Source of the DNA: Gammaproteobacteria bacterium
GTDB taxonomy: Bacteria; Pseudomonadota; Gammaproteobacteria; UBA4575
Length of the DNA stretch: 64,000 bases
Direction: 5' to 3'
Assembly: GCA_011523795.1 (NCBI GenBank)
Contig: WTFY01000010.1
Coordinates: 124,001-188,000, forward strand
The notes under the pieces are model-generated. The model was not told where the DNA came from, ran no database searches, and worked only from the letters and a program-made list of their open reading frames with translations. The position numbers and the translations under genes are program-made. Each line of letters begins with the position of its first letter. The stretch's first letter is position 1. Of the stretch, positions 5,392 through 17,965 are shown piece after piece.

Positions 5392-6804
5392 TCAGGCTGT
5401 AGCTGCCGATTTTCTGGGTTCTCCAGACAGTTTCCACTCGGGCAATGACCGAAACGCCTGATGGTCTTTCGCAAGCCGCCGGTGCCCGGCACCGAAATAG
5501 TGTTCACGCAAGGTGCTCGTATCGTAATGCGTGCGCATGCGGCCGCGTCGCTGCAGCTCGGGCACCACCAGGTTCACGAAATCGATGTACCCCGTGGGGT
5601 GGTTGGCCACGACGAGGTTGAACCCGTCACAATCCGTCACTTCCATCCAGCGTTCCAGTTCGTCTGCGACCGTTGCCGGGCTGCCGATGAATTTTGGCAT
5701 CACACTGCCGATCGAGATGAACTCGGCCGCTTCCTGCAGCGTCCAATCGCGGTCCGGATCCGCTTCAGCGAAATAACTCAGCAGTCCCTGGATTGCATTG
5801 GTCTCGGCATTTGCCAGCTTTTCATTGACATCGATCTTGGACAGGTCCACCCCCACCCAGCCGCAGTACAGTGCCAGGGCTCCTTCGGGGCTTCTGTATT
5901 TTTTGCAGGTCTCGAATTTCAGACGGGCCTCTTCGTCGGTCGGTGCGACGATTACGGAAATGCCGGGAAATATCTTTACCTCGTTCGGGTCGCGGCCCTG
6001 CTTGGCGATGACTTCGCGAGTGGAGCGGATGATATTCTTGGAGACCTCCATGTTCGGGTGGATCGCAAAGATTGCCTCGGCGTGGCGTGCCGCGAACTCG
6101 ATCCCCCGGCCCGAACCGCCCGCCTGAAACAGGACCGGTGTACGTTGCCGGGACGGTTCGCACATGTGCGGGCCAGGGACATTGAAGTACTTGCCCCTGT
6201 GATTGATCTCGTGCACTTTGGCGGGGTCGGTATGGATGTCTTTCTCAATATCACGGATGACGGCATCTTCTTCCCATGAGTGTTCCCACAGCTTGTACAC
6301 CACGTCCATGTATTCATCCGCCCGGTCATAGCGTTCGTCATGCTCCATCTGTTCACCGATGCCGAAATTCTCGTTGGCGTCCGGCAGGTAGGAGGTGACG
6401 ATATTCCACGCGATGCGCCCCTTGGTCAGGTGGTCCAGGGTGGAGAACAGCTTGGCGGTCTGGTAAGGGGGGAAATAACTCGTGGAGAATGTGCAGGCAA
6501 AACCGATATGCCGGGTGGCATAGGCCATTGCGGAGATCACCAGGGTAGGGTCGTTGCTGGGGATTTGTGTGCTGTGCCGCACTGCGGTATCACGCGACCC
6601 CTTGTAGACATTGTAGGTTCCGTGCACATCTGCCAGGAACAGGCTGTCAAAACAGCCGCGTTCCAGGGTTTTGGCGATATCAACCCAGTAGTTCACGTCC
6701 TTGTAGCCCATCGAGGATTGATCAAGGGGGTGTTTCCATTGGCCCTTCGAATGAAAGCAGATGGAGCACATGGTAAAAGCATTCATGTGAATTTGTTTTG
6801 ACAT
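5392..6804 (-). CDS. NtaA/SnaA/DszA-family FMN-dependent monooxygenase
   Basis: Luciferase-like (TIM-barrel) flavin monooxygenase of the class that includes nitrilotriacetate monooxygenase A, DszA and pristinamycin synthase SnaA; it needs reduced FMN from a separate reductase. The 470 residues fit the family. Typical stretches are LERGCFDSLFLAD, GRIAWNIVTSYLPDANENFG, YDRADEYMDVVYKLWEHSW, HRGKYFNVPGPH and PVLFQAGGSGRG. The start MSKQIHMNAF was chosen over a longer frame with a non-homologous 46-residue extension. It is divergent from the MetX-like hydrolase at 6986. The substrate is unknown; such enzymes oxidise C-N or C-S bonds. No flavin reductase gene of the usual NtaB type is adjacent. Confidence 0.88.
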   Translation of the reverse strand: MSKQIHMNAFTMCSICFHSKGQWKHPLDQSSMGYKDVNYWVDIAKTLERGCFDSLFLADVHGTYNVYKGSRDTAVRHSTQIPSNDPTLVISAMAYATRHIGFACTFSTSYFPPYQTAKLFSTLDHLTKGRIAWNIVTSYLPDANENFGIGEQMEHDERYDRADEYMDVVYKLWEHSWEEDAVIRDIEKDIHTDPAKVHEINHRGKYFNVPGPHMCEPSRQRTPVLFQAGGSGRGIEFAARHAEAIFAIHPNMEVSKNIIRSTREVIAKQGRDPNEVKIFPGISVIVAPTDEEARLKFETCKKYRSPEGALALYCGWVGVDLSKIDVNEKLANAETNAIQGLLSYFAEADPDRDWTLQEAAEFISIGSVMPKFIGSPATVADELERWMEVTDCDGFNLVVANHPTGYIDFVNLVVPELQRRGRMRTHYDTSTLREHYFGAGHRRLAKDHQAFRSLPEWKLSGEPRKSAATA

Positions 6805-6825
6805 TTTCTTATAACCATGCTTTGA

Positions 6826-6874
6826 GTTGACACTAGATTGATTCAATGGTAATGCTGTGTGACTAATTGTCAAC
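6826..6874. promoter_or_regulatory. Inverted-repeat operator candidate between divergent genes
   Basis: GTTGACA (6826-6832) followed by CTAG, and its inverted partner CTAA-TTGTCAAC (6863-6874), frame about 30 nt inside the 181-nt divergent spacer between the flavin monooxygenase and the MetX-like hydrolase. The paired elements also resemble -35 hexamers pointing both ways, so this could be overlapping promoters, a regulator site, or both. No regulator gene lies in the island. Confidence 0.4.
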
Positions 6875-6985
6875 CAACATGCATGGTACGGCAGACATGT
6901 GTGCCGCCTTGCCTTCTTGGGCGCTGCCAGCCTGCCAAACAACTACTTACGACAATTGCCCATGCAAGGTTGAGGGAGCTGTCAA

Positions 6986-8038
6986 GTGGAAAACGAGTAT
7001 TATTCCCAGGAAAACCACGGCCCGTACTCGCTGTTTGAACTCGGCGATTTCCAGCTTGAATGCGGCAGGACGCTTGCAGACTGCCAGCTGGCGTATTCGT
7101 GTTTCGGCGAACTGAATTCGGAAAAGACCAATGCCATCGTGTTTACGGTCATGTTTTCAGGCACCAACAAGGCCATGGAAAAATATATCGGAAAGGGTCT
7201 GGCGCTGGATCCCGAGAAATACTTCATTGTCGTACCGAATCAGCTGGGCAGCGGCCTGTCGACCTCGCCTCACAATGCTCCCCCTCCTGATGAGGGGCCT
7301 GACTTTCCGCAAATCTCGATCGGGGATGACGTTCGTGCACAGCACAGGCTGCTGACTGAAAAGTTCGGCGTGAAAAGCATAGACCTGGTCCTTGGCTGGT
7401 CCATGGGTGGGCAGCAGACGTACGAATGGTGCGTGAGGTATCCGGAAATGGTCAGGCGGGCTGCCCCGATAGGGGGGACTGCGAGAACCACCCCGCATGA
7501 CTCCCTGTACGTGGAGGTGTTCTGTGAGGCGCTGAAGTCTGATCCGGCCTGGGAACACGGCCGGTACACGCAACCCCATGCAGTGGAACTGGGCCTGAAG
7601 CGGCTTGCACACGTGTTTGCCCTGATGGGCAACTGCACGGAATTCTACCGGCAGGAAAAGTGGACCGATCTGGGGATTGCCTCGCTGGACGGTTACCTGA
7701 GCGGTTTTTGGGAAACCTGGTTCAAGCCCATGGACCCGAACAACCTGCTGTGCATGGCCTCGAAATGGAAACGGGGGGACGTGTGTGCGGTTTCGGGAAA
7801 GAGCCTGAAGGACACGCTGGGGTCCATCAGGGCGAAAGTCTTTGTCATTGCCTTTACGCAGGACATGTTCATCCCGCTCACGGACTGCAAATATGAGCAG
7901 GAGATGATTCCGGGCAGCGAGTTGAGACAGGTCCCCACCCTGTGGGGCCATTTTGGCATGCTGGGGCTGGCCCAGGAGGACTTTGACCTGATCAACAGCA
8001 TCTTGTCCGAGGCCCTTCAGTCACCCTGCGCCGCCTGA
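6986..8038 (+). CDS. MetX-like alpha/beta hydrolase (homoserine acetyltransferase family)
   Basis: Alpha/beta-hydrolase with the nucleophile elbow GWSMGG (about S139), a likely catalytic Asp in TQDMFIPLTD and His in LWGHFGML, all arranged as in homoserine O-acetyltransferase MetX. The 350 residues fit the family, as does the opening pattern (LxxCxLAYxxFGELN). The GTG start at 6986 is supported by GAGGGAG seven nt upstream. The catabolic and transport context argues against methionine synthesis; it may hydrolyse an ester, amide or thioester. Convergent with livF. Family assignment is confident, activity is not. Confidence 0.85.
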   Translation: MENEYYSQENHGPYSLFELGDFQLECGRTLADCQLAYSCFGELNSEKTNAIVFTVMFSGTNKAMEKYIGKGLALDPEKYFIVVPNQLGSGLSTSPHNAPPPDEGPDFPQISIGDDVRAQHRLLTEKFGVKSIDLVLGWSMGGQQTYEWCVRYPEMVRRAAPIGGTARTTPHDSLYVEVFCEALKSDPAWEHGRYTQPHAVELGLKRLAHVFALMGNCTEFYRQEKWTDLGIASLDGYLSGFWETWFKPMDPNNLLCMASKWKRGDVCAVSGKSLKDTLGSIRAKVFVIAFTQDMFIPLTDCKYEQEMIPGSELRQVPTLWGHFGMLGLAQEDFDLINSILSEALQSPCAA

Positions 8039-8128: not shown

Positions 8129-8881
8129 TCAGGGGTTGCCCGAGCCGAGATAATATTCCTTGATATCATCACGCACGGACAGTTCGTCGGCTTTTCCGGA
8201 CACGGCGACATTTCCGTTTTCCAATACGTAGCAGTAGTTGGCATACTTCATGGCAAGGTTGATGTTCTGCTCGGCGATCAGAAAACTCACATTATTCTCC
8301 CGGTTCATCGACTTGATGATTTCGAAGATCTCCTGGATGATTACCGGGGCCAGTCCCATTGAGGGCTCGTCCAGCAGGACCAGGATGGGCTTTGTCATGA
8401 GTGCGCGACCAATCGCGAGCATTTGCTGCTCACCGCCCGAAGCGAGTCCCGCCCTGCTTTTGCGCCGCAGCTTGAGGCGTGGAAACCACTCGTAGACCTG
8501 TTCCAGGTCTGAAGCCATTCTGGCACGGTTTGGCTGGCGTACGAAAGCGCCGGCCATCAGGTTTTCTTCTACGGTCAGTTGAGGAAATACATGCCTGCCT
8601 TCCAGCACCTGGACGATGCCCTTGGCTACGAGGTCGGAAGCGGAATAGCGCTCGATCGACTCACCCTGCCAGGTGATCCTGCCCTTGGTGATTTCACCCC
8701 GCTCCTGCCCCAGGAGCTTGGAGATGGCCTTGAGGGTAGTGGTTTTCCCGGCGCCGTTGGCGCCGAACAGGGACACGATTGATCCCTGTTCGACGACTAT
8801 CGTTACATCCTGCAGGGCTAGTATTGCCTGCCCGTAGTGAACCTGGATATTTTCAACCTTGAGAAAATCGCCAGTGCTCAA
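8129..8881 (-). CDS. livF: Branched-chain-type ABC transporter ATPase (LivF-like)
   Basis: One of the two ATPases of a HAAT-type importer. Walker A GANGAGKTT (about residues 37-45), signature LASGGEQQM, Walker B ILVLLDEP and the switch His region (LIAEQN) are visible. At 250 residues it is slightly longer than typical LivF (~235). It is the last gene of the livG-livH-livM-binding protein-livF run on the minus strand, 19 nt after the binding-protein stop. Cytoplasmic face of the inner membrane. The cargo is inferred from the island to be a non-amino-acid organic compound, but this is unproven. Confidence 0.93.
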   Translation of the reverse strand: MSTGDFLKVENIQVHYGQAILALQDVTIVVEQGSIVSLFGANGAGKTTTLKAISKLLGQERGEITKGRITWQGESIERYSASDLVAKGIVQVLEGRHVFPQLTVEENLMAGAFVRQPNRARMASDLEQVYEWFPRLKLRRKSRAGLASGGEQQMLAIGRALMTKPILVLLDEPSMGLAPVIIQEIFEIIKSMNRENNVSFLIAEQNINLAMKYANYCYVLENGNVAVSGKADELSVRDDIKEYYLGSGNP

Positions 8882-8900
8882 GACGGTGCCCGCTGCTCAC

Positions 8901-10244
8901 TTACGCTTCGCACTCGGGCAGGTCGCGCTTCGGGACGCCCTGCTCTTTTGCAAGCTCCTCTGCCTTGGCAGTGAAGATGGGCACGAACAGCTGTGTGTCG
9001 ATCTCGATCCAGTCGGTCGAATCCCATCCGTCGCCGGCCCACTGAATGACTTTCGCCTGGATGCTCTCACCTTGATGGTTGCAGCGCGAGAGCTTCAACG
9101 GGGCCAGCAGCCCGACCGCACCGATATCTTCGAGTCGTGCTTGATCGATGTTCAGGTTCTCGTAGGCCCACTTGGCTTCCTCACCGGTAATCGGCCTGTT
9201 TCCGAACTTCGTGTGGCCGGTTCTCAGGACCTCGGAATAGATCAGCGACGTGATCACGCCAAAGTTGTAGTAGACCGTGCCGAACCGCTCCATTTCCTTC
9301 AGGTCGCCCTTGCCCTTGTCATACAGGGTTTCCTTGATTCGCTTGAGAAGTTCATAATCGGTTCCCGGCGGGAAGATGTTGACTCCGGTGTAGCCAATCG
9401 CAGCATCGCCAGCCGGGCGCACATCGTCTTCTGAAGTCGCCCAGATGTCACCGATGATGTGATCGACCGGAAATCCCGTGCGCTTGGCCGTTTTGATGCC
9501 TACCGGGGTCATTGCCCCCCAGCTGCGGAAGAATACCCAGTCGGCCTTTTCGTTGCGAATGCGTTGCCACTGGGCCTCTTGCTGGATTCCCGGATGGGCC
9601 ACCGGAATCTGTACGTCCTTGAATCCGTACTGCTCGGACAGCATTTTCATCGGGGTGATGGTTTCTCGGCCGTATCCGGAATCATGGTACAGCGTCACAA
9701 TCACCTGGTCCTTGAGCTTGTCATGACCCCCGAGGCGCTGGGCGATATACTCGACAACAATCTGCGCTTCTCTCCAGTAGTCGAACATCACCGAGAACTG
9801 GTATTCGTTGAATCGCCCGTCAATGGCCGTTGCGGTACCACCGCCGGGTGTCATGTGTGGCATTTTGTGCTTGCGATTCCTCTCTACCGTCGCCGCGAAG
9901 AGTCCCGATGACATCCCCGTGATGGTCGCGGTGGGTGCACCCTGGTGTCCCCCGACGTAACGGTCGAAGCACTCGATGCCCTTGTCGATGTCGTATGAAG
10001 TTTCACACTCCACCATGTAGTTGAGAACTCCATTCACGCCACCCTCGGTTTCGTTGAGGTAATCCAGCATGTCCTTTTGTCCGGCTACGATTGAGGTCCC
10101 CACATTTGCGTAAGGTCCGGTCCGGTACGTGAACAGGGGATAGAACTGCTCCCCTTCATGCGCACCGGCTGCAAAGACCGCCTGCAAGCTGGTCGAAACC
10201 AGCACGGCGGCAAGCAGCGCATAGCTTAGTTGACGTAAATACAT
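8901..10244 (-). CDS. Periplasmic substrate-binding protein, LivK/Peripla_BP_6 type
   Basis: Secreted receptor for the adjacent importer. There is a clear Sec signal peptide (LLAAVLVSTSLQAVFAA, cleavage near residue 26). The mature part is a two-lobed type-I binding fold with GTSIVAGQKDMLDYLNETEGG and a long central domain; 447 residues is larger than classical LivK (~370). The start is well supported by AGGAGGA seven nt upstream of the ATG. It sits between livM and livF but is separated from livM by 176 nt, which contain a hairpin. Size and sequence suggest amide/urea-like or aromatic ligands rather than leucine, but that is inference. Confidence 0.9.
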   Translation of the reverse strand: MYLRQLSYALLAAVLVSTSLQAVFAAGAHEGEQFYPLFTYRTGPYANVGTSIVAGQKDMLDYLNETEGGVNGVLNYMVECETSYDIDKGIECFDRYVGGHQGAPTATITGMSSGLFAATVERNRKHKMPHMTPGGGTATAIDGRFNEYQFSVMFDYWREAQIVVEYIAQRLGGHDKLKDQVIVTLYHDSGYGRETITPMKMLSEQYGFKDVQIPVAHPGIQQEAQWQRIRNEKADWVFFRSWGAMTPVGIKTAKRTGFPVDHIIGDIWATSEDDVRPAGDAAIGYTGVNIFPPGTDYELLKRIKETLYDKGKGDLKEMERFGTVYYNFGVITSLIYSEVLRTGHTKFGNRPITGEEAKWAYENLNIDQARLEDIGAVGLLAPLKLSRCNHQGESIQAKVIQWAGDGWDSTDWIEIDTQLFVPIFTAKAEELAKEQGVPKRDLPECEA

Positions 10245-10290
10245 TGTAATTTCCTCCTAATAGTTATTATTTTATGCACTTATTCAAAGC

Positions 10291-10309
10291 CTGCTCCCGA
10301 GAGGGGCAG
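10291..10309 (-). other. Intercistronic hairpin between livM and binding-protein gene
   Basis: CTGCTCC and GGGGCAG form a 7-bp stem (one wobble pair) around a 5-nt loop in the 176-nt spacer. There is no U-tract after it in the direction of transcription, so it is more like an mRNA processing or stabilising hairpin than a terminator. Higher expression of the downstream binding-protein gene than of the permeases would be expected. Confidence 0.35.
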
Positions 10310-10419
10310 ACCTAAATATGCATGGCATCACCTCCTGCGATTTTTGTTCCTGAACAACATATCCCCAAAGGCCGATGGATCAGTACCCGTCCCGGACGGA
10401 TTCGGCATCCGGCGTGAGA

Positions 10420-11493
10420 TCACGCTGTAACCCGAAGCCGCCTGCACGCTCCACTCAAAGCAGCTGCAGCCCGTTGAAGCAGCTTGTAAAGGCCATCCGG
10501 CTCTTTGATCAGGATGTAAACAATCATAGCACCGAATAGTACTCGCTGCAGATTTGTGGTAATTCCGATATTCACATGTTCGGTCAGTCCGAGGCCGACC
10601 ACAGCCAGGTTGAGGAAAATAGGTGTCAGCACGATAAAGGCCGCGCCGATGAAGTTTCCGAATATGCTTGCCGTGCCGCCAATGATCACGATGAACAGGA
10701 TCTCGAAGGACTTGTCGAGATCAAAGGAGTGGGCATTGCTCGTCTGCAGGTAGCAGAATCCCCAGAGTACACCCGCGATGCCGCAGTAAAAGGAACTGAT
10801 GCCAAATGCCAGAAGCTTGCGGGCGCGAACCTTGATGCCAATGACGGTGGCCGAGGTCTCCATGTCACTTACTGCAATCCATTCCCGGCCAATGCGACTG
10901 CGCACGATGCTGTACGCGAGCGCAACCAGCGCAAGGGTGGTCACGCTGACGATCATGTAACGGCCATGCACTGACTTGAGGTCCATGCCGAAGAGCTCGA
11001 GCCGCGGAGCGGTGATGGTCAAGGACAGGTTATCGTTGCAGAACCAGGAAAAATTGGTGAACAGCCACTCGAAAAAAAACTGTGCCCCGAGGGTGGATGC
11101 CGCGAGGTAGAACCCCTTGATCCGCAGGCTAGGCAGCCCGAACAGGACACCGAATACCGCTGCAATCAGACCGGCCAGGATGATCACAACCGGCAGGGGA
11201 AGCACCGGTACCCGCAACAGCAGGTTGTAGGCCGAGAAGGCTCCCACGGCCATGAAGGCCGCCGAACCGATCGAGACACACCCGGTGAATCCCATCAGCA
11301 AATTGAGGCCGACGCCCGCGATACCCATCACCAGCATCGGGATCATGATGGAGTTGATCCAGTAATCGTTGAAACTGAGCGGCACGGCAAGTGCAGCGAT
11401 CGTCAACGCCCCGATGATGCCTGGCTTGACCAGGCCGGAACGCTGGGAGAGCGGGAGCAGGTCCGCGCGCGGTGAAGTCTGGGTCTCCGGCAT
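10420..11493 (-). CDS. livM: Branched-chain-type ABC permease (LivM-like)
   Basis: Inner-membrane permease subunit, 357 residues with about ten hydrophobic segments. The family hallmark region GAFSAYNLL and the loop LRIKGFYLAASTLGAQFFFEWLF followed by the AxxxxG coupling region (REWIAVSDMETSATVIGIKVRARKLLAFGISSFYCGIAGVL, given here only for position, about residues 205-245) are typical of LivM. It begins 3 nt after livH ends, so the two permeases are tightly coupled. The N-terminus has a polar leader before the first membrane helix, as in other LivM proteins. Confidence 0.93.
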   Translation of the reverse strand: MPETQTSPRADLLPLSQRSGLVKPGIIGALTIAALAVPLSFNDYWINSIMIPMLVMGIAGVGLNLLMGFTGCVSIGSAAFMAVGAFSAYNLLLRVPVLPLPVVIILAGLIAAVFGVLFGLPSLRIKGFYLAASTLGAQFFFEWLFTNFSWFCNDNLSLTITAPRLELFGMDLKSVHGRYMIVSVTTLALVALAYSIVRSRIGREWIAVSDMETSATVIGIKVRARKLLAFGISSFYCGIAGVLWGFCYLQTSNAHSFDLDKSFEILFIVIIGGTASIFGNFIGAAFIVLTPIFLNLAVVGLGLTEHVNIGITTNLQRVLFGAMIVYILIKEPDGLYKLLQRAAAALSGACRRLRVTA

Positions 11494-11496
11494 GGC

Positions 11497-12372
11497 TCAG
11501 ACCCGTTCGATCTCGCGCTCACCGAACAGGCCGGCAGGCTTGATCAGGAGAAAGAACACGGCCAGAATATAGGCAAACCAGGCGGATACGCTGCCCCGGA
11601 AGATGGGGCCCAGATAGAAGTCGGCTAGGCTTTCGGTCGCCCCGACCAGCAGGCCGGCCACGATGGCGCCGATCATGGACGAGAACCCCCCGATAATGAG
11701 TACCGGCAATGCCTTGAGGGCCGACAGGGTCAGCGAAAACTGGACCCCCTGGCGTGCCCCCCAGAGAAGCCCGGCGGCCAGGGCCACGAATCCTGCCACG
11801 CTCCACACAATCCGCCACACTTGCGGAAGCTTGATGCCGATCGATTGCGCCGCCAGCACATCGTCGGCCACCGCGCGCAGCGAGATGCCGATGCGCGTGG
11901 TGTTGAAGACGAACGAAATGACGACCACCATGAGAACGGCCATGGCGGTTGCAAACAGGTCAAACTCGCTCAGCCACAGGTCACCGATCTGCAGGGTGCC
12001 GTCCGCCACGCCAAGTTCCAGGATATGCACATCGGTGCCCATCGCCAGTTGCGCAATTCCCTCGATCATGAAACTCAACCCCAGCGTGGCCACGAACAGT
12101 ACCATCGGGTCACGATTCGCCATGGGGCGAAGCATCATCCGCTCGATGAGCACGGCACAGACCACCATGACGATCATCACGATGAGCAGCGCGATCCAGA
12201 ACGGAATGCCTGCTTCCACAAACGTCACATACATCAGTGCAGTGAACAGCACCATGGAACCCTGGGCGAAATTGAACACGCCCGATGCCTTGTAGATGAG
12301 AACGAAGCCAAGCGCCACGGAGGAGTACATCACCCCGGCAAGCAACCCACCCAGCAGCACCTCAAGAAACAT
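11497..12372 (-). CDS. livH: Branched-chain-type ABC permease (LivH-like)
   Basis: Partner permease, 291 residues, with about eight membrane segments. The N-terminus GLLAGVMYSSVALGFVLIYKASGVFNFAQG is the LivH signature region (about residues 9-38), and RAVADDVLAAQSIGI is the ATPase-coupling loop. It lies between livG (17 nt upstream) and livM (3 nt downstream). Confidence 0.94.
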   Translation of the reverse strand: MFLEVLLGGLLAGVMYSSVALGFVLIYKASGVFNFAQGSMVLFTALMYVTFVEAGIPFWIALLIVMIVMVVCAVLIERMMLRPMANRDPMVLFVATLGLSFMIEGIAQLAMGTDVHILELGVADGTLQIGDLWLSEFDLFATAMAVLMVVVISFVFNTTRIGISLRAVADDVLAAQSIGIKLPQVWRIVWSVAGFVALAAGLLWGARQGVQFSLTLSALKALPVLIIGGFSSMIGAIVAGLLVGATESLADFYLGPIFRGSVSAWFAYILAVFFLLIKPAGLFGEREIERV

Positions 12373-12389
12373 CCTCGCCCCCCGTCCCG

Positions 12390-13184
12390 TTATTCATACA
12401 CTTCTCCCAGGTAAGCCTTGATCACGCCCGGGTCGTTTCGTACCTGTTCGGGCATGCCGTCGGCAATCTTGCTCCCATAGTCCAGTACCACGATACGGTG
12501 CGCCAGCCCCATGACGATACCGATATCATGCTCGATGAGCACGATCGTGGTCTTGAAATGCGAGTTCACCTCCGAGACGATGCGGCTCATTTCCTGCTTC
12601 TCGTCCTGGTTCATTCCCGCCATGGGTTCGTCGAGCAGCAGCAGCCTGGGTTCCGAGACCAGCGCCCGTGCAAGGTCCACCCGTTTCTGGATGCCGAACG
12701 GGAGGGTCGATACGATGGTGCCGGCGTGTTCCTCGAGCTTGAGGAAGGCGATGACCCTGCTGGCCCAGGCGAGGAACCGCCTGTTTTCGGCGCGGTCGCG
12801 GCCGACATGGAATATGTTTTCCCAGAACGTGGTTTTCCCGTGGCGCGCAAGGCCTGCCAGGATGTTGTCCAGCACCGTCAGCCTTTCAAACAGCGCATTG
12901 TGCTGGAACGTCCTTCCGATCCCGCGCCGCGCCGCATCAAACGGGGTGATTTTCTGGAAATGCCTGCCGTCGAAGACCACTTCGCCATGCTGTGGCCGGT
13001 AGACACCGTTGATCACATTGAGCAGTGAACTCTTTCCCGCACCGTTCGGGCCGATAAGTGCGCAGATTTCGCCCTCCTGGACCTCCATGCTGACGTTGGA
13101 GAGCGCCTTCACTCCCTTGAACGACAGGGAAATTTCATGGATTTCCAAAAGCGCTTCTTTGCCGGCGGGCAGGTCTTCGGGCAT
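12390..13184 (-). CDS. livG: Branched-chain-type ABC transporter ATPase (LivG-like)
   Basis: Second ATPase of the importer and first gene of the transcription unit. Walker A GPNGAGKSS, Walker B LLLLDEPMAGM and a C-terminal YLGEVYE typical of LivG are present. The signature is degenerate (STLPFGIQKRVD in place of LSGGQ); LPFGxQ at this position is in fact typical of LivG proteins. The start MPEDLPAG (264 residues) was chosen because GGAGGGG lies seven nt upstream; an ATG seven codons earlier lacks this. It is divergent from the AlkB-like gene across a 287-nt regulatory region. Confidence 0.93.
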   Translation of the reverse strand: MPEDLPAGKEALLEIHEISLSFKGVKALSNVSMEVQEGEICALIGPNGAGKSSLLNVINGVYRPQHGEVVFDGRHFQKITPFDAARRGIGRTFQHNALFERLTVLDNILAGLARHGKTTFWENIFHVGRDRAENRRFLAWASRVIAFLKLEEHAGTIVSTLPFGIQKRVDLARALVSEPRLLLLDEPMAGMNQDEKQEMSRIVSEVNSHFKTTIVLIEHDIGIVMGLAHRIVVLDYGSKIADGMPEQVRNDPGVIKAYLGEVYE

Positions 13185-13255
13185 CAGAACCCCTCCATTT
13201 GACAAGTACTCTGCATATAAGAATTCTTGGCAGTACTCGACAAGTCATTGTATAC

Positions 13256-13471: not shown

Positions 13472-14653
13472 ATGTGGAAATATCTGAAGTTTGGGTGGCT
13501 GAACTGGATTGTGACCCTGGGCACCGCCGTCAGCTTCGTCGCAGGCGGCTGGTGGATGTGGTTCGGTGTCGGTTTCATGTTCATCATAGGGGTCGGAGGT
13601 GAACTCCTCAGCAAGGAGGACAACTCGGAACCCGGTTACAGTTTCGGCTGGATCTACGACTGGATCGTTTACACGATCTCCCTGTTCCTGCTCGTATCCC
13701 TGATTACTTTCGTCTGGGCGTTCAGCGGGGCTGACCTGCTCGGCATCGGGGCCTTCACGCTGGAACTGTTCGGGTATGACGCCCTGGCCGCGCGCGGTGA
13801 AAACGCTTGGTACCACTACACGGGTGCGGCGCTGTCCATCGGGATCACGCTGGGTGTACAGGGCATCGTCATGGGGCATGAACTGGTTTCGCGCACCGAG
13901 GACGCCGTGGACACGAGGATCGGCGAGCTGGTGTTCGCCCTGATGTTCGGGACGAACTTTGCCGTCGAGCATGTGTACGGGCATCACAAGAACCTGGGAT
14001 ATCCCGAGCACGACGCGGTCACCCCGATCCGGGGCACGCACTTCTACCAGTTCCAGACGGTCGGGACCTGGACCCAGTGGAAAAGCGGCTGGGAGGTTGA
14101 AAAGAGGCGCCTGAATGATGCCGGACAGTCTGTGTTTTCATTCGGCAACCGGATCGTGCAGGCCTGGCTGCGGGGCGGGATCGTCATGGCACTGGTGCTG
14201 GCCGGCGGCGGATGGGTCTGCTTCCTGTATTATCTCCTGGCCATTTGCTACGCCAAATTCATTCTGGAAGGACTCAACTTCTTCTCTCACTACGGGCTGG
14301 TCCGGGAAAAGGGTCAGCCGATCACTCCGCGTGTGACCTTCTCCAGCAACAATGCCTGGGGCAACTGGATTCTGCTGAATCTTGGCCGTCACGGCGCGCA
14401 TCATGCGGACAACAGCCGCTACCAGGATCTCAGGGCGTACAAGGACGATCCGCAGTGTCCCTTCGGGTACCTGACGATGACGGTCATTGCATGGATTCCC
14501 CCCCTGTTCTTCAAGGTGATCGTTCCCATGCTCAAGGAATGGGACGAAAAATACGCCACGGCTGCGGAGCTGGAAATCACCCGGAAGGAAAACCAGGAAA
14601 GCGGGATCAAGGAACTGGAGAATTTCGTACCCCGACGCATGGCTTCGGCCTGA
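13472..14653 (+). CDS. AlkB-like membrane di-iron oxygenase with altered first His box
   Basis: Integral-membrane non-haem di-iron enzyme of the alkane hydroxylase/xylene monooxygenase family; 393 residues with several hydrophobic helices in the N-terminal third. Histidine boxes (this start numbering): GHELVS at 135-140, EHVYGHH at 166-172, NFFSHYGL at 269-276 and LGRHGAHH at 304-311. The first box normally reads HELxHK; here the second His is Ser140. The rest matches AlkB closely. The ATG at 13472 has GAGGG seven nt upstream; a TTG 15 codons earlier has poor spacing. Electrons probably come from the reductase encoded two genes downstream. The substrate is unknown. Confidence 0.85.
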   Translation: MWKYLKFGWLNWIVTLGTAVSFVAGGWWMWFGVGFMFIIGVGGELLSKEDNSEPGYSFGWIYDWIVYTISLFLLVSLITFVWAFSGADLLGIGAFTLELFGYDALAARGENAWYHYTGAALSIGITLGVQGIVMGHELVSRTEDAVDTRIGELVFALMFGTNFAVEHVYGHHKNLGYPEHDAVTPIRGTHFYQFQTVGTWTQWKSGWEVEKRRLNDAGQSVFSFGNRIVQAWLRGGIVMALVLAGGGWVCFLYYLLAICYAKFILEGLNFFSHYGLVREKGQPITPRVTFSSNNAWGNWILLNLGRHGAHHADNSRYQDLRAYKDDPQCPFGYLTMTVIAWIPPLFFKVIVPMLKEWDEKYATAAELEITRKENQESGIKELENFVPRRMASA

Positions 14654-14678
14654 TCACACGCAAGAAGGAGGCATGGCC

Positions 14679-16838
14679 ATGGAACCGATCACTGTCAGAC
14701 CCGAGCCTCCACCCGGCCATACCCAGCACCACGTGGTATGCCCGCATGACTGCCCGGACGGCTGTTCGATGCTCGTCACGGTGAATGATGACACCGGCAA
14801 GGCGACCAGGGTGGAAGGCGATCCCAGCAATCCCATTACACGGGGCTACCTGTGCAACAAGGTCAACCATTACCTGGATCTTGTGTACAACGACAGCCGG
14901 GTGCTGTACCCCCACAAGCGAATCGGACCGAAAGGGCCCGGGGCGAAATTCGAGAGAATCTCCTGGGACGAGGCACTGGAAACGGTCACGGACAATTTCA
15001 AGTCGGTCATCGATGAGCATGGACCCGAAGCGGTCCAGCCGTATTCGTATTCGGGCACCCTGGGGCTGATCCATTTCTGGGGGATGGACCAGCGGTTCTG
15101 GAACCGGATGGAAGCGGCAAGGCTGGACCAGTCCATCTGTGCATGGGCCGGGATCTGGACCCATATCTACACCTATGGGCTGGCGGACGGGCCGAGCACG
15201 GAAGACATCCCGGATGCAGACATGGTGATTCTGTGGGCGAACAACATCGTCAGTACGGGCGTACACCTGATACCGTTCGTCGAGGAAGCAAGGGAACGCG
15301 GCGCCACGATCGTTGCGGTGGATCCGAGGAAAACCCGGACCACCGAGTTTGCGGACTGGCACATCCAGCCCCGTCCGGGCACGGACGGAGCCCTGGCGCT
15401 GGGGATGATGAAACTCATCGTGGACGCCGGGCTGCATGATGAGGCGTTCCTGAGGGAATACACGCATGGCTGGGAGCAGCTGATCCAGGACGAACTTCCG
15501 AAATGGCCGCTGGAGAAAGTGTCCCGCATCACGGGAATCGGAGCCCAGGAAATCGAAAAGTTCGCCCGGGCGTTCGCCGCGAGCAAGAAAACGAATATCC
15601 GGACCGGCTGGGGCCTCAACCGGCACAGGAACTCGGGCCAGACCTGCCGCGCGGTCATGCTTCTGCCCTGCATCACCGGTGCCTGGCGTGAAAAATGCGG
15701 GGGCTGCCTGAGCTGGACCGGCGAGGAAAACTGGATGCGGCTGCAACTGGGCAAGCTGCAGCGGCCGGACCTGGGCGACCGGGCGTCCAAGCGGACCATC
15801 AACATGGTGCAGATCGGCAGGGCCCTGGCGGACAACCAGGACATGAACGGCGAATCGCTCGACCCGCCGATCAAGTCACTTTTCGTGTACAACTCGGACC
15901 CCGCGAACTGTGCACCGAACACCAACAACGTACGCAAGGGCCTGATGCGTGACGATCTTTTCGTGGCGGTGCATGACGTGGTCTGGACCGACACCTGCCT
16001 GTATGCGGACATCGTGCTGCCGGCCGATACGCAGCTGGAACGCTGGGACCTGCATGCCCCCTGGGGCCACTACATCTACAACCTGAGCCAGCCGTGTATC
16101 AAGCCGCTCGGGGAGAGCGTGTGCAACTCGGAACTGTTCAGGATGCTGGCCGGGAAGATGGGGTATGACGAGGATGCCTTCAGGCAGTCTGACGAGGACA
16201 TGATCAGGGAAATCATCTGCGACGAGGGACACCCGGGCATGGAGGGCATCACGCTTGAAGGGCTCAAGCAGAACGGCTGGATGCGCTGCAATGTCGACTC
16301 GCCGAACCGGGACCGGCTGAAACACGGCTGGCCGACCGAGACGGGCAAGATCAACATCTGGTCCGAGGATGTCAAGAACCAGGGGCAGTCCCCTCTGCCC
16401 ACGTACGTGCCGGAAGAGGAAGGCCAGGAAAACTATGAACGGAGGAAGAAGTACCCGCTGCAGGTGCTGAGCAACGCACCGCATTACTTCATCGGTGATT
16501 CGTTCCAGTCCGTGCCCAGGCTGCAGGCGATGATGTCGAGGCCCACCGTGGAGCTGTGCCCTGAAGACGCCTTCGAGCGGGGCATCGAGGATGGTGACCT
16601 GTGCCGCCTTTACAACGACCGCGGTGAAACCTATGCCCATGCCGTGATCATCGACGGGCTGCTCCCCGGGGTTTGCAGTACCCAGAAACAGTTCAAGGGC
16701 AGTAACACGCCCGGGGGAGTGAATGCGAATGCGCTGATATCGGAGGACTTGACGGATATCGGCTGGAGTCCCTCGTTTTATTCGTGCCTGGCACAGGTGG
16801 AAAAAGCGCAGAGCGAACAGGACCCGTCAACGCCCTAG
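14679..16838 (+). CDS. Molybdopterin oxidoreductase (DMSO reductase superfamily)
   Basis: 719-residue bis-MGD enzyme. N-terminal 4Fe-4S motif CPHDCPDGC followed by GYLCNK supplies the four cysteines (about residues 20-60). A probable Mo-ligand Cys lies in LDQSICAWAG, although the ligand assignment is by analogy. WANNIVSTGVH and VAVDPRKTRTTEFAD are typical cofactor-binding stretches; the C-terminal dinucleotide-binding domain spans from LQVLSNAPHYFIGD. There is no Tat signal, so it is cytoplasmic. AAGGAGG is seven nt from the ATG at 14679 and only one from the ATG at 14673, so the former was chosen. No dedicated membrane anchor is encoded; the partner is probably the downstream reductase. Confidence 0.88.
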   Translation: MEPITVRPEPPPGHTQHHVVCPHDCPDGCSMLVTVNDDTGKATRVEGDPSNPITRGYLCNKVNHYLDLVYNDSRVLYPHKRIGPKGPGAKFERISWDEALETVTDNFKSVIDEHGPEAVQPYSYSGTLGLIHFWGMDQRFWNRMEAARLDQSICAWAGIWTHIYTYGLADGPSTEDIPDADMVILWANNIVSTGVHLIPFVEEARERGATIVAVDPRKTRTTEFADWHIQPRPGTDGALALGMMKLIVDAGLHDEAFLREYTHGWEQLIQDELPKWPLEKVSRITGIGAQEIEKFARAFAASKKTNIRTGWGLNRHRNSGQTCRAVMLLPCITGAWREKCGGCLSWTGEENWMRLQLGKLQRPDLGDRASKRTINMVQIGRALADNQDMNGESLDPPIKSLFVYNSDPANCAPNTNNVRKGLMRDDLFVAVHDVVWTDTCLYADIVLPADTQLERWDLHAPWGHYIYNLSQPCIKPLGESVCNSELFRMLAGKMGYDEDAFRQSDEDMIREIICDEGHPGMEGITLEGLKQNGWMRCNVDSPNRDRLKHGWPTETGKINIWSEDVKNQGQSPLPTYVPEEEGQENYERRKKYPLQVLSNAPHYFIGDSFQSVPRLQAMMSRPTVELCPEDAFERGIEDGDLCRLYNDRGETYAHAVIIDGLLPGVCSTQKQFKGSNTPGGVNANALISEDLTDIGWSPSFYSCLAQVEKAQSEQDPSTP

Positions 16839-16852
16839 ACTAGGAGGTTAGA

Positions 16853-17965
16853 TTGTCCGTGCAATTTCGGAGCCTGCCGGCGGCAGACCCTCGAATTCAA
16901 AACAGTCGGGTCCGGGTCAGCCAGGGAGTCATCACCGGCACCCGGAAACTCACGTACGACACGATGGAACTGGTGGTGCAGTGCGACCCGGCCTCCGCCC
17001 CGCTGAGCGGTACGGCCGGGCAGTATGCGATCCTGGCCACACCAAGCCTGAGCAAGCCCCGCGCCTACTCGTTTGCCATGGCGCCCGAGAACGAAGAGGC
17101 CGGCCGGCATACGTTCTTCGTCAAGCTGATTCACGGTGGCGAGTTTTCTGGGTGGCTGTTCAGGGCGGACCGGACCGGAGAGCCCATCACCCTGACCGGC
17201 CCGCTCGGGCAGTTCGTTCTCGATTCTTCCGCTGACCCGATGGTGTGCATTGCCGGCGGCAGCGGCATGAGCGCGATCAAGGCCATCCTTGAACATGCCG
17301 CGAACCGGTCCGTGAAGCGGGACGCCCTTTTCCTGTACGGGGCCAGGACCCAGGCCGACCTCTACTGCCAGGACGAAATCGAATCGATCAAGCGGAAATG
17401 GAACGCAGACTACCGGTTTGATTGCGTGAACGTTCTTTCGATGGAGCCGAAAGACAGCGGCTGGGCCGGCGCAAGGGGGCTGGTGACAGAGTATTTTGAA
17501 AGCGCGTACCTGCGGGACGGAAAATTCGGTATCGGCAACTCGCGGGCTTACCTGTGCGGCCCCCCGCCGATGGTGGATGCCGCGGTATCCGTGCTGGTTG
17601 ACAGCGGGATGGCACCCGGGCGGATCCATTACGACAAGTTCGAGGACGCGAGTTCGCCTGCGCCCGTCATTGACAATTCAAAATGCGTACTGTGTGATGA
17701 ATGCCTGCTGGTCAAGCCGATTCAAAACTGCATTGTCGAGGCATCGGGCTTCGTGCTCGACAAGAACGACGGGGTAGAGGGTTACTTGCGTGTGAATCCG
17801 GCACGAACTTCCGGCCTGTATTACAACTCGCTTTACATCGATGAGGATGAATGCATACGCTGCCTGGCCTGTGTGCATCAATGCCCGACCAATGCAATTT
17901 CCCCTTCCAACTCGGTGAATCCCGCCATGCTCCGGAACATGAGGACCGGGGCGCCCCCGGCCTGA
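16853..17965 (+). CDS. FAD/NAD(P) oxidoreductase with C-terminal 2[4Fe-4S] ferredoxin
   Basis: 370-residue electron-transfer protein. The FAD-binding domain contains RAYSFA (about residues 76-81), and the NAD-binding domain contains GGSGMSAIKAIL and ends with CGPPPMV, as in oxygenase reductases. Instead of the usual N-terminal 2Fe-2S plant-type ferredoxin it carries a C-terminal bacterial dicluster domain, with CVLCDEC plus a distal Cys and CIRCLACVHQCP. The TTG start has AGGAGG five nt upstream. Spacing of 14 nt after the molybdopterin gene shows one operon. It could serve the AlkB-like oxygenase, the Mo enzyme, or link the two. Confidence 0.88.
   Translation: MSVQFRSLPAADPRIQNSRVRVSQGVITGTRKLTYDTMELVVQCDPASAPLSGTAGQYAILATPSLSKPRAYSFAMAPENEEAGRHTFFVKLIHGGEFSGWLFRADRTGEPITLTGPLGQFVLDSSADPMVCIAGGSGMSAIKAILEHAANRSVKRDALFLYGARTQADLYCQDEIESIKRKWNADYRFDCVNVLSMEPKDSGWAGARGLVTEYFESAYLRDGKFGIGNSRAYLCGPPPMVDAAVSVLVDSGMAPGRIHYDKFEDASSPAPVIDNSKCVLCDECLLVKPIQNCIVEASGFVLDKNDGVEGYLRVNPARTSGLYYNSLYIDEDECIRCLACVHQCPTNAISPSNSVNPAMLRNMRTGAPPA

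Follow-up and report, generated by a model that had tools for sequence, protein, structure and literature searches.

What becomes of an AlkB-type oxygenase when one of the nine histidines of its di-iron site is a serine? A paper on the Fontimonas thermophila enzyme (FtAlkB) describes these histidines as the same in all species and as essential to GPo1 AlkB (PMC10110569). The question is raised by a gene on the forward strand (13472..14650) of a gammaproteobacterial stretch of 64,000 nucleotides, here called the window, which encodes an AlkB-like membrane protein (393 codons without the stop codon). Its nearest relatives are nine sequences (L001-L007, L136 and L137; 47-51% identical), for which the name SHYG clade was coined in this analysis and which share its NFFSHYG and GRHG boxes but, unlike it, keep the second His of box 1 (HELTH in all nine).

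The AlkB-like protein and its histidine boxes

The open reading frame is full length and free of stop codons, and its N-terminus (MWKYLKFG) is the same start as in sister sequences. The protein matches PF00487 (FA_desaturase; 4.1e-20, 73.1 bits against a gathering cut-off of 29.7) in Pfam and nothing in NCBIfam at E values up to 1, and its only confident relatives in the PDB are two structures of Fontimonas AlkB, 8f6t (1.2e-39) and 8sbb (7.2e-31). The first-pass annotation had pointed out that box 1 reads HELVS, with Ser140 in place of the second His, and both the reading frame and the codons bear this out: the box (13877..13891, forward strand) stands in the context VMGHELVSRTED, with H136 encoded by CAT (13877-13879) and S140 by TCG (13889-13891). 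The other three boxes, all on the forward strand, had been described as intact, which is correct for their histidines (H167, H171, H172, H273, H307, H310 and H311 are all kept) but not for every ligand. Box 2 (13967..13987) is EHVYGHH (E166-H172) and box 4 (14387..14404) is RHGAHH (R306-H311), but box 3 (14276..14296; N269-G275) is NFFSHYG instead of NYxEHYG, so that the conserved Glu beside Fe2 is here Ser272. Eight of the nine histidines are thus present, and the serine at column 272 is common to the window protein and its nine sisters.

In alignments to the PDB sequences, S140 falls on FtAlkB His141 and S272 on Glu271. The 8F6T paper, in the part available, gives His137, His141, His167, His172 and His314 as ligands of Fe1, and His171, His272, His311 and His315, together with Glu271, as those of Fe2, and puts His141 beyond the Fe1 plane, on the line through both irons (PMC10113152). 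Since S140 aligns with an Fe1 ligand, the altered ligand set that had been proposed for this protein is supported by homology, and two of the ten reported ligands would be missing from it, one in its genome only and the other throughout the clade (ten sequences). The accompanying idea, that another residue takes over as ligand, fared less well, given that the extra histidines H115, H180 and H190 were rejected as replacements for lack of conservation in the seven sister sequences compared.

The predicted model of the protein (pLDDT 97.0, pTM 0.93, from an alignment of 85 rows) has the AlkB fold, and superposes on 8f6t with a Z score of 41.3 and an rmsd of 2.1 over 353 residues, and on 8sbb with a Z score of 37.3. 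The fold is therefore predicted with high confidence, independently of the missing His. Fontimonas AlkB shares with the window protein this fold, the four boxes and eight of the nine iron-binding histidines, and differs from it in His141 and Glu271 (Ser in both cases), at 25-29% identity; moreover, the 393-residue chain has no rubredoxin domain, unlike the Fontimonas enzyme. Two further structural matches, 8xks_K (Z 13.5) and 8xqw_M (Z 11.9), with an rmsd of about 6, were dismissed as possible common helical arrangements. The stearoyl-CoA desaturase SCD1 is also a weak structural match (Z 5.3-5.6); its His-rich di-iron centre has a layout similar to that of AlkB, according to the available text of PMC10110569, whereas its overall fold and box spacing differ from those of the window protein.

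Ser140 among the relatives of the protein

The column of S140 holds a His in 80 of 80 loci (the best 80 of 119 relatives from a scan of genome contigs) and in all 124 other distinct sequences of a wider set, built from 142 open reading frame hits from that scan and from whole-genome searches after removal of 15 contained duplicates and two short fragments. No further carrier of Ser140 was found in the genus (5 genomes), family (19), order (19), class (369) or phylum (398), nor in the 36 genomes covered for the sister lineage, an identical set at family and at order level. Viral contigs yielded no relative of the protein, the best plasmid relatives are 35-36% identical, and in the genome, viral and plasmid searches none was closer than about 51%. 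Among the titles and abstracts found by literature searches, none reports an AlkB-like protein without the second His of box 1, which is weak evidence of absence. As every relative collected has the His, Ser140 is a derived change, present in one genome only. The alignment of homologues that the first-pass annotation had called for has thus been made, and what it had named as the mark of a local mutation, namely that close homologues all have His, is indeed what was found; however, with even the closest of them at no more than about 50% identity, this does not suffice to show that the mutation is recent or degenerate.

Could the serine simply be an assembly or sequencing artefact? The assembly comprises 22 contigs and the serine rests on a single sequence. 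Nonetheless, the eight sister loci whose codon was read (L001-L007 and L136) use CAT or CAC for the His, and TCG differs from both at all three bases, so it is not a single-base error; furthermore, the reading frame is uninterrupted, and another gene on this contig has relatives within the genus. We consider an artefact very improbable.

In a tree of 30 rows, hand-chosen from the 125 available, the window protein is sister to the nine with a support of 100/100, and a quick tree of all 125 rows places it likewise (support 100). Its branch measures 0.56 in the first, against 0.82-0.98 for the sister tips from the same node, and 0.66 in the second, against about 0.80-0.98. Among the 24 positions that are invariant in the nine sisters and at least 95% conserved in the 115 other sequences, S140 is the sole change, compared with 56 changes at the 165 less conserved clade-invariant positions (Fisher p 0.0017). 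With a looser cut (at least 76 of the first 80 loci), the window protein departs at 3 of 43 positions, including W153 and M350. With 23 of the 24 most conserved positions kept, a branch that is not long and a confidently predicted fold, there is no general decay of the gene. For the greater part of the branch, this argues that the protein has been under selection, which would still be compatible with a change near its tip.

These data bear directly on a reading in which the oxygenase activity has been lost, either because Ser140 arose recently and abolished function or because a non-catalytic membrane protein survives. We hold this to be quite possible, at clearly less than an even chance. It agrees with the reported indispensability of the nine histidines in GPo1 AlkB (PMC10110569, in the text available), with the His in every relative, and with the lack of the gene in all four further genomes of its genus (matches there are 30% identical or less), which makes it dispensable to the genus. 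It is at odds with the retention of the eight other histidines and of the most conserved positions, with the unaccelerated branch, and with partner genes that are open and full length.

Serine at this place is unique to the window protein, and none of the other 124 sequences has changed the second His of box 1, but other ligands of the first shell do vary. Column 272 holds Glu in 109 of the 124, Ser in 9, Gln in 4 and Phe in 2, and the column of H307, an Fe2 ligand in FtAlkB, holds Gln in 21 sequences, every one of which comes from the family of the window genome. The subfamily's Glu-to-Ser change at Fe2 and this 21-member Gln clade indicate that AlkB-like proteins do not all share one fixed set of ligands.

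Some variants seen in passing deserve a record. The Gln carriers (L083-L085, L088-L090, L092, L094, L096-L105 and L108-L110) have a box 4 of the form GR-Q-[GA]DHH, and in all 21 the Glu of box 2 is replaced by Ala; of four Gln-type copies found in longer stretches, three (L148, L149 and L151) have a FabA gene close by, and the group may thus consist of lipid desaturases whose Fe2 site is altered. Two tandem genes of one genome (L118 and L121) have HN[LM]xH as box 1 and RHP[YF]GHH as box 2, not HExxH and EHxxGHH. In L001, the SHYG-clade gene is immediately followed by a second AlkB-like gene (L001:5321-6499), in which Phe replaces the Fe2 Glu (FHHG), as it does in L134.

Gene neighbourhood and candidate pathway

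Downstream on the forward strand there is a DMSO-reductase-family molybdopterin oxidoreductase of 721 aa (14673..16838; PF00384 at 3.8e-38, PF01568 and PF04879), followed by an FAD/NAD reductase with a C-terminal 4Fe-4S domain (16853..17965; PF00175 and PF00037). Orthologous copies of both, 58-63% and 49-51% identical respectively, are found beside the sister gene in L001, L003, L004 and L007; these four of seven loci are a lower bound, since L002, L005 and L006 end early on one side. The records of L003 and L004 are metagenome-assembled genomes titled Klebsiella pneumoniae, yet the taxonomic grouping used here puts them in a single family with uncultured gammaproteobacteria sharing the gene, and the titles look wrong. 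Unlike the window, where no separate gene for it was found, four of the seven sister loci have an extra adjoining 2Fe-2S/FAD reductase (partial in L006). Clade members have a reductase resembling BenC and XylA, a point in common with the xylene monooxygenase hydroxylase XylM, a remote relative whose plasmid sequences match the window protein at about 32%.

The molybdoenzyme looks like a core enzyme. It has homologues, up to 69% identical, in 19 of the 19 genomes of the window's own family, so it also has a role without the AlkB-like gene. A second copy, 67% identical, is encoded in the same genome (G000:C7:261895-264030), and in seven of the eight stretches examined that contain the enzyme, it lies next to the 4Fe-4S reductase. 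A simple transfer of the module in one piece from the sister lineage is not supported, the molybdoenzyme being nearer to copies in its own family than to those of the sister clade.

Two more genes possibly belong to the same pathway: one for a MetX-like alpha/beta hydrolase (6986..8038, forward strand; NF005757, 444.6 bits, cut-off 332), with copies 49-52% identical in five of the seven sister loci (L002, L003, L004, L005 and L007), and one for an NtaA/DmoA-family FMN-dependent monooxygenase (5392..6942, reverse strand; TIGR03860, 544 bits, cut-off 279.7), which was not found in the sister loci examined. Nor was the five-gene transporter of the branched-chain-amino-acid/urea ABC type (8129..13205, reverse strand) that diverges from the AlkB-like gene, and whose gene at 8901-10244, placed as the binding protein, has no NCBIfam match. 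Sister loci L004, L005 and L007 hold relatives of sulfide-quinone reductase or flavocytochrome c sulfide dehydrogenase, and L003 and L004 a TorA/BisC-like enzyme. Taken together, the neighbourhood suggests an organosulfur pathway.

With such neighbours, might the ligand change have led to a new reaction, such as desaturation, decarbonylation or sulfoxidation? The axial ligand of Fe1 and the carboxylate of Fe2 have both changed, and a DmoA/NtaA-family monooxygenase and a DMSO-reductase-family enzyme are at hand. Nevertheless, the sister enzymes have their His in the same kind of cluster, whose chemistry would thus need no Ser140, and we regard a new reaction as improbable. Of the two proposals made for this protein at the outset, the altered ligand set is supported by homology; no support was found for an altered reaction.

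What a missing axial histidine may mean

The reading that we tentatively prefer, at slightly under an even chance, is that of a still-selected oxygenase with two irons, in which Fe1 would be held by four histidines. The subfamily would already have replaced its Fe2 carboxylate (Glu to Ser) while travelling with the molybdoenzyme and the FAD/4Fe-4S reductase; on the branch leading to the window genome, Ser would then have taken the place of Fe1's axial ligand, the second His of box 1, in a protein apparently kept under purifying selection. As regards metal binding, activity, electron donor and substrate, we infer that both irons are probably still bound, Fe1 through H136, H167, H172 and H310, that water or the hydroxyl of the serine may fill the vacant axial place, and that O2-dependent oxidation would have continued with the nearby reductase as electron source and, perhaps, an organosulfur compound or another small alkyl molecule as substrate. 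A retained oxygenase is in line with the first-shell changes elsewhere in the family (Gln at H307 in 21 of 124 sequences; Ser, Phe or Gln at column 272 in 15) and with the molybdoenzyme and reductase beside the sister gene. Against it stand the reported invariance and indispensability of the nine histidines (PMC10110569, in the text available), the occurrence of Ser in one sequence only, and a constraint that, measured along a long branch, is compatible with a change near its tip. Retention and loss of activity are thus close rivals that the sequence cannot separate.

The Ser140 change is real and, as far as this data set goes, unique, and the gene in which it lies is otherwise well preserved and belongs to a recognisable subfamily; homology supports an altered ligand set. 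That this is a working AlkB-type oxygenase whose di-iron site has only eight histidines and lacks a carboxylate, the His perhaps having gone second, once the subfamily had given up its Fe2 carboxylate, and hence that nature can replace the axial His of Fe1, we rate as rather unlikely. If true, however, a ligand held to be indispensable would prove replaceable in nature; the AlkB structure papers, in the parts available, describe the nine histidines as invariant and the axial one as stabilising Fe1 opposite Fe2. A natural protein without it, whose scaffold and gene cluster are otherwise conserved, offers a test case, already at hand, for the role of this ligand.
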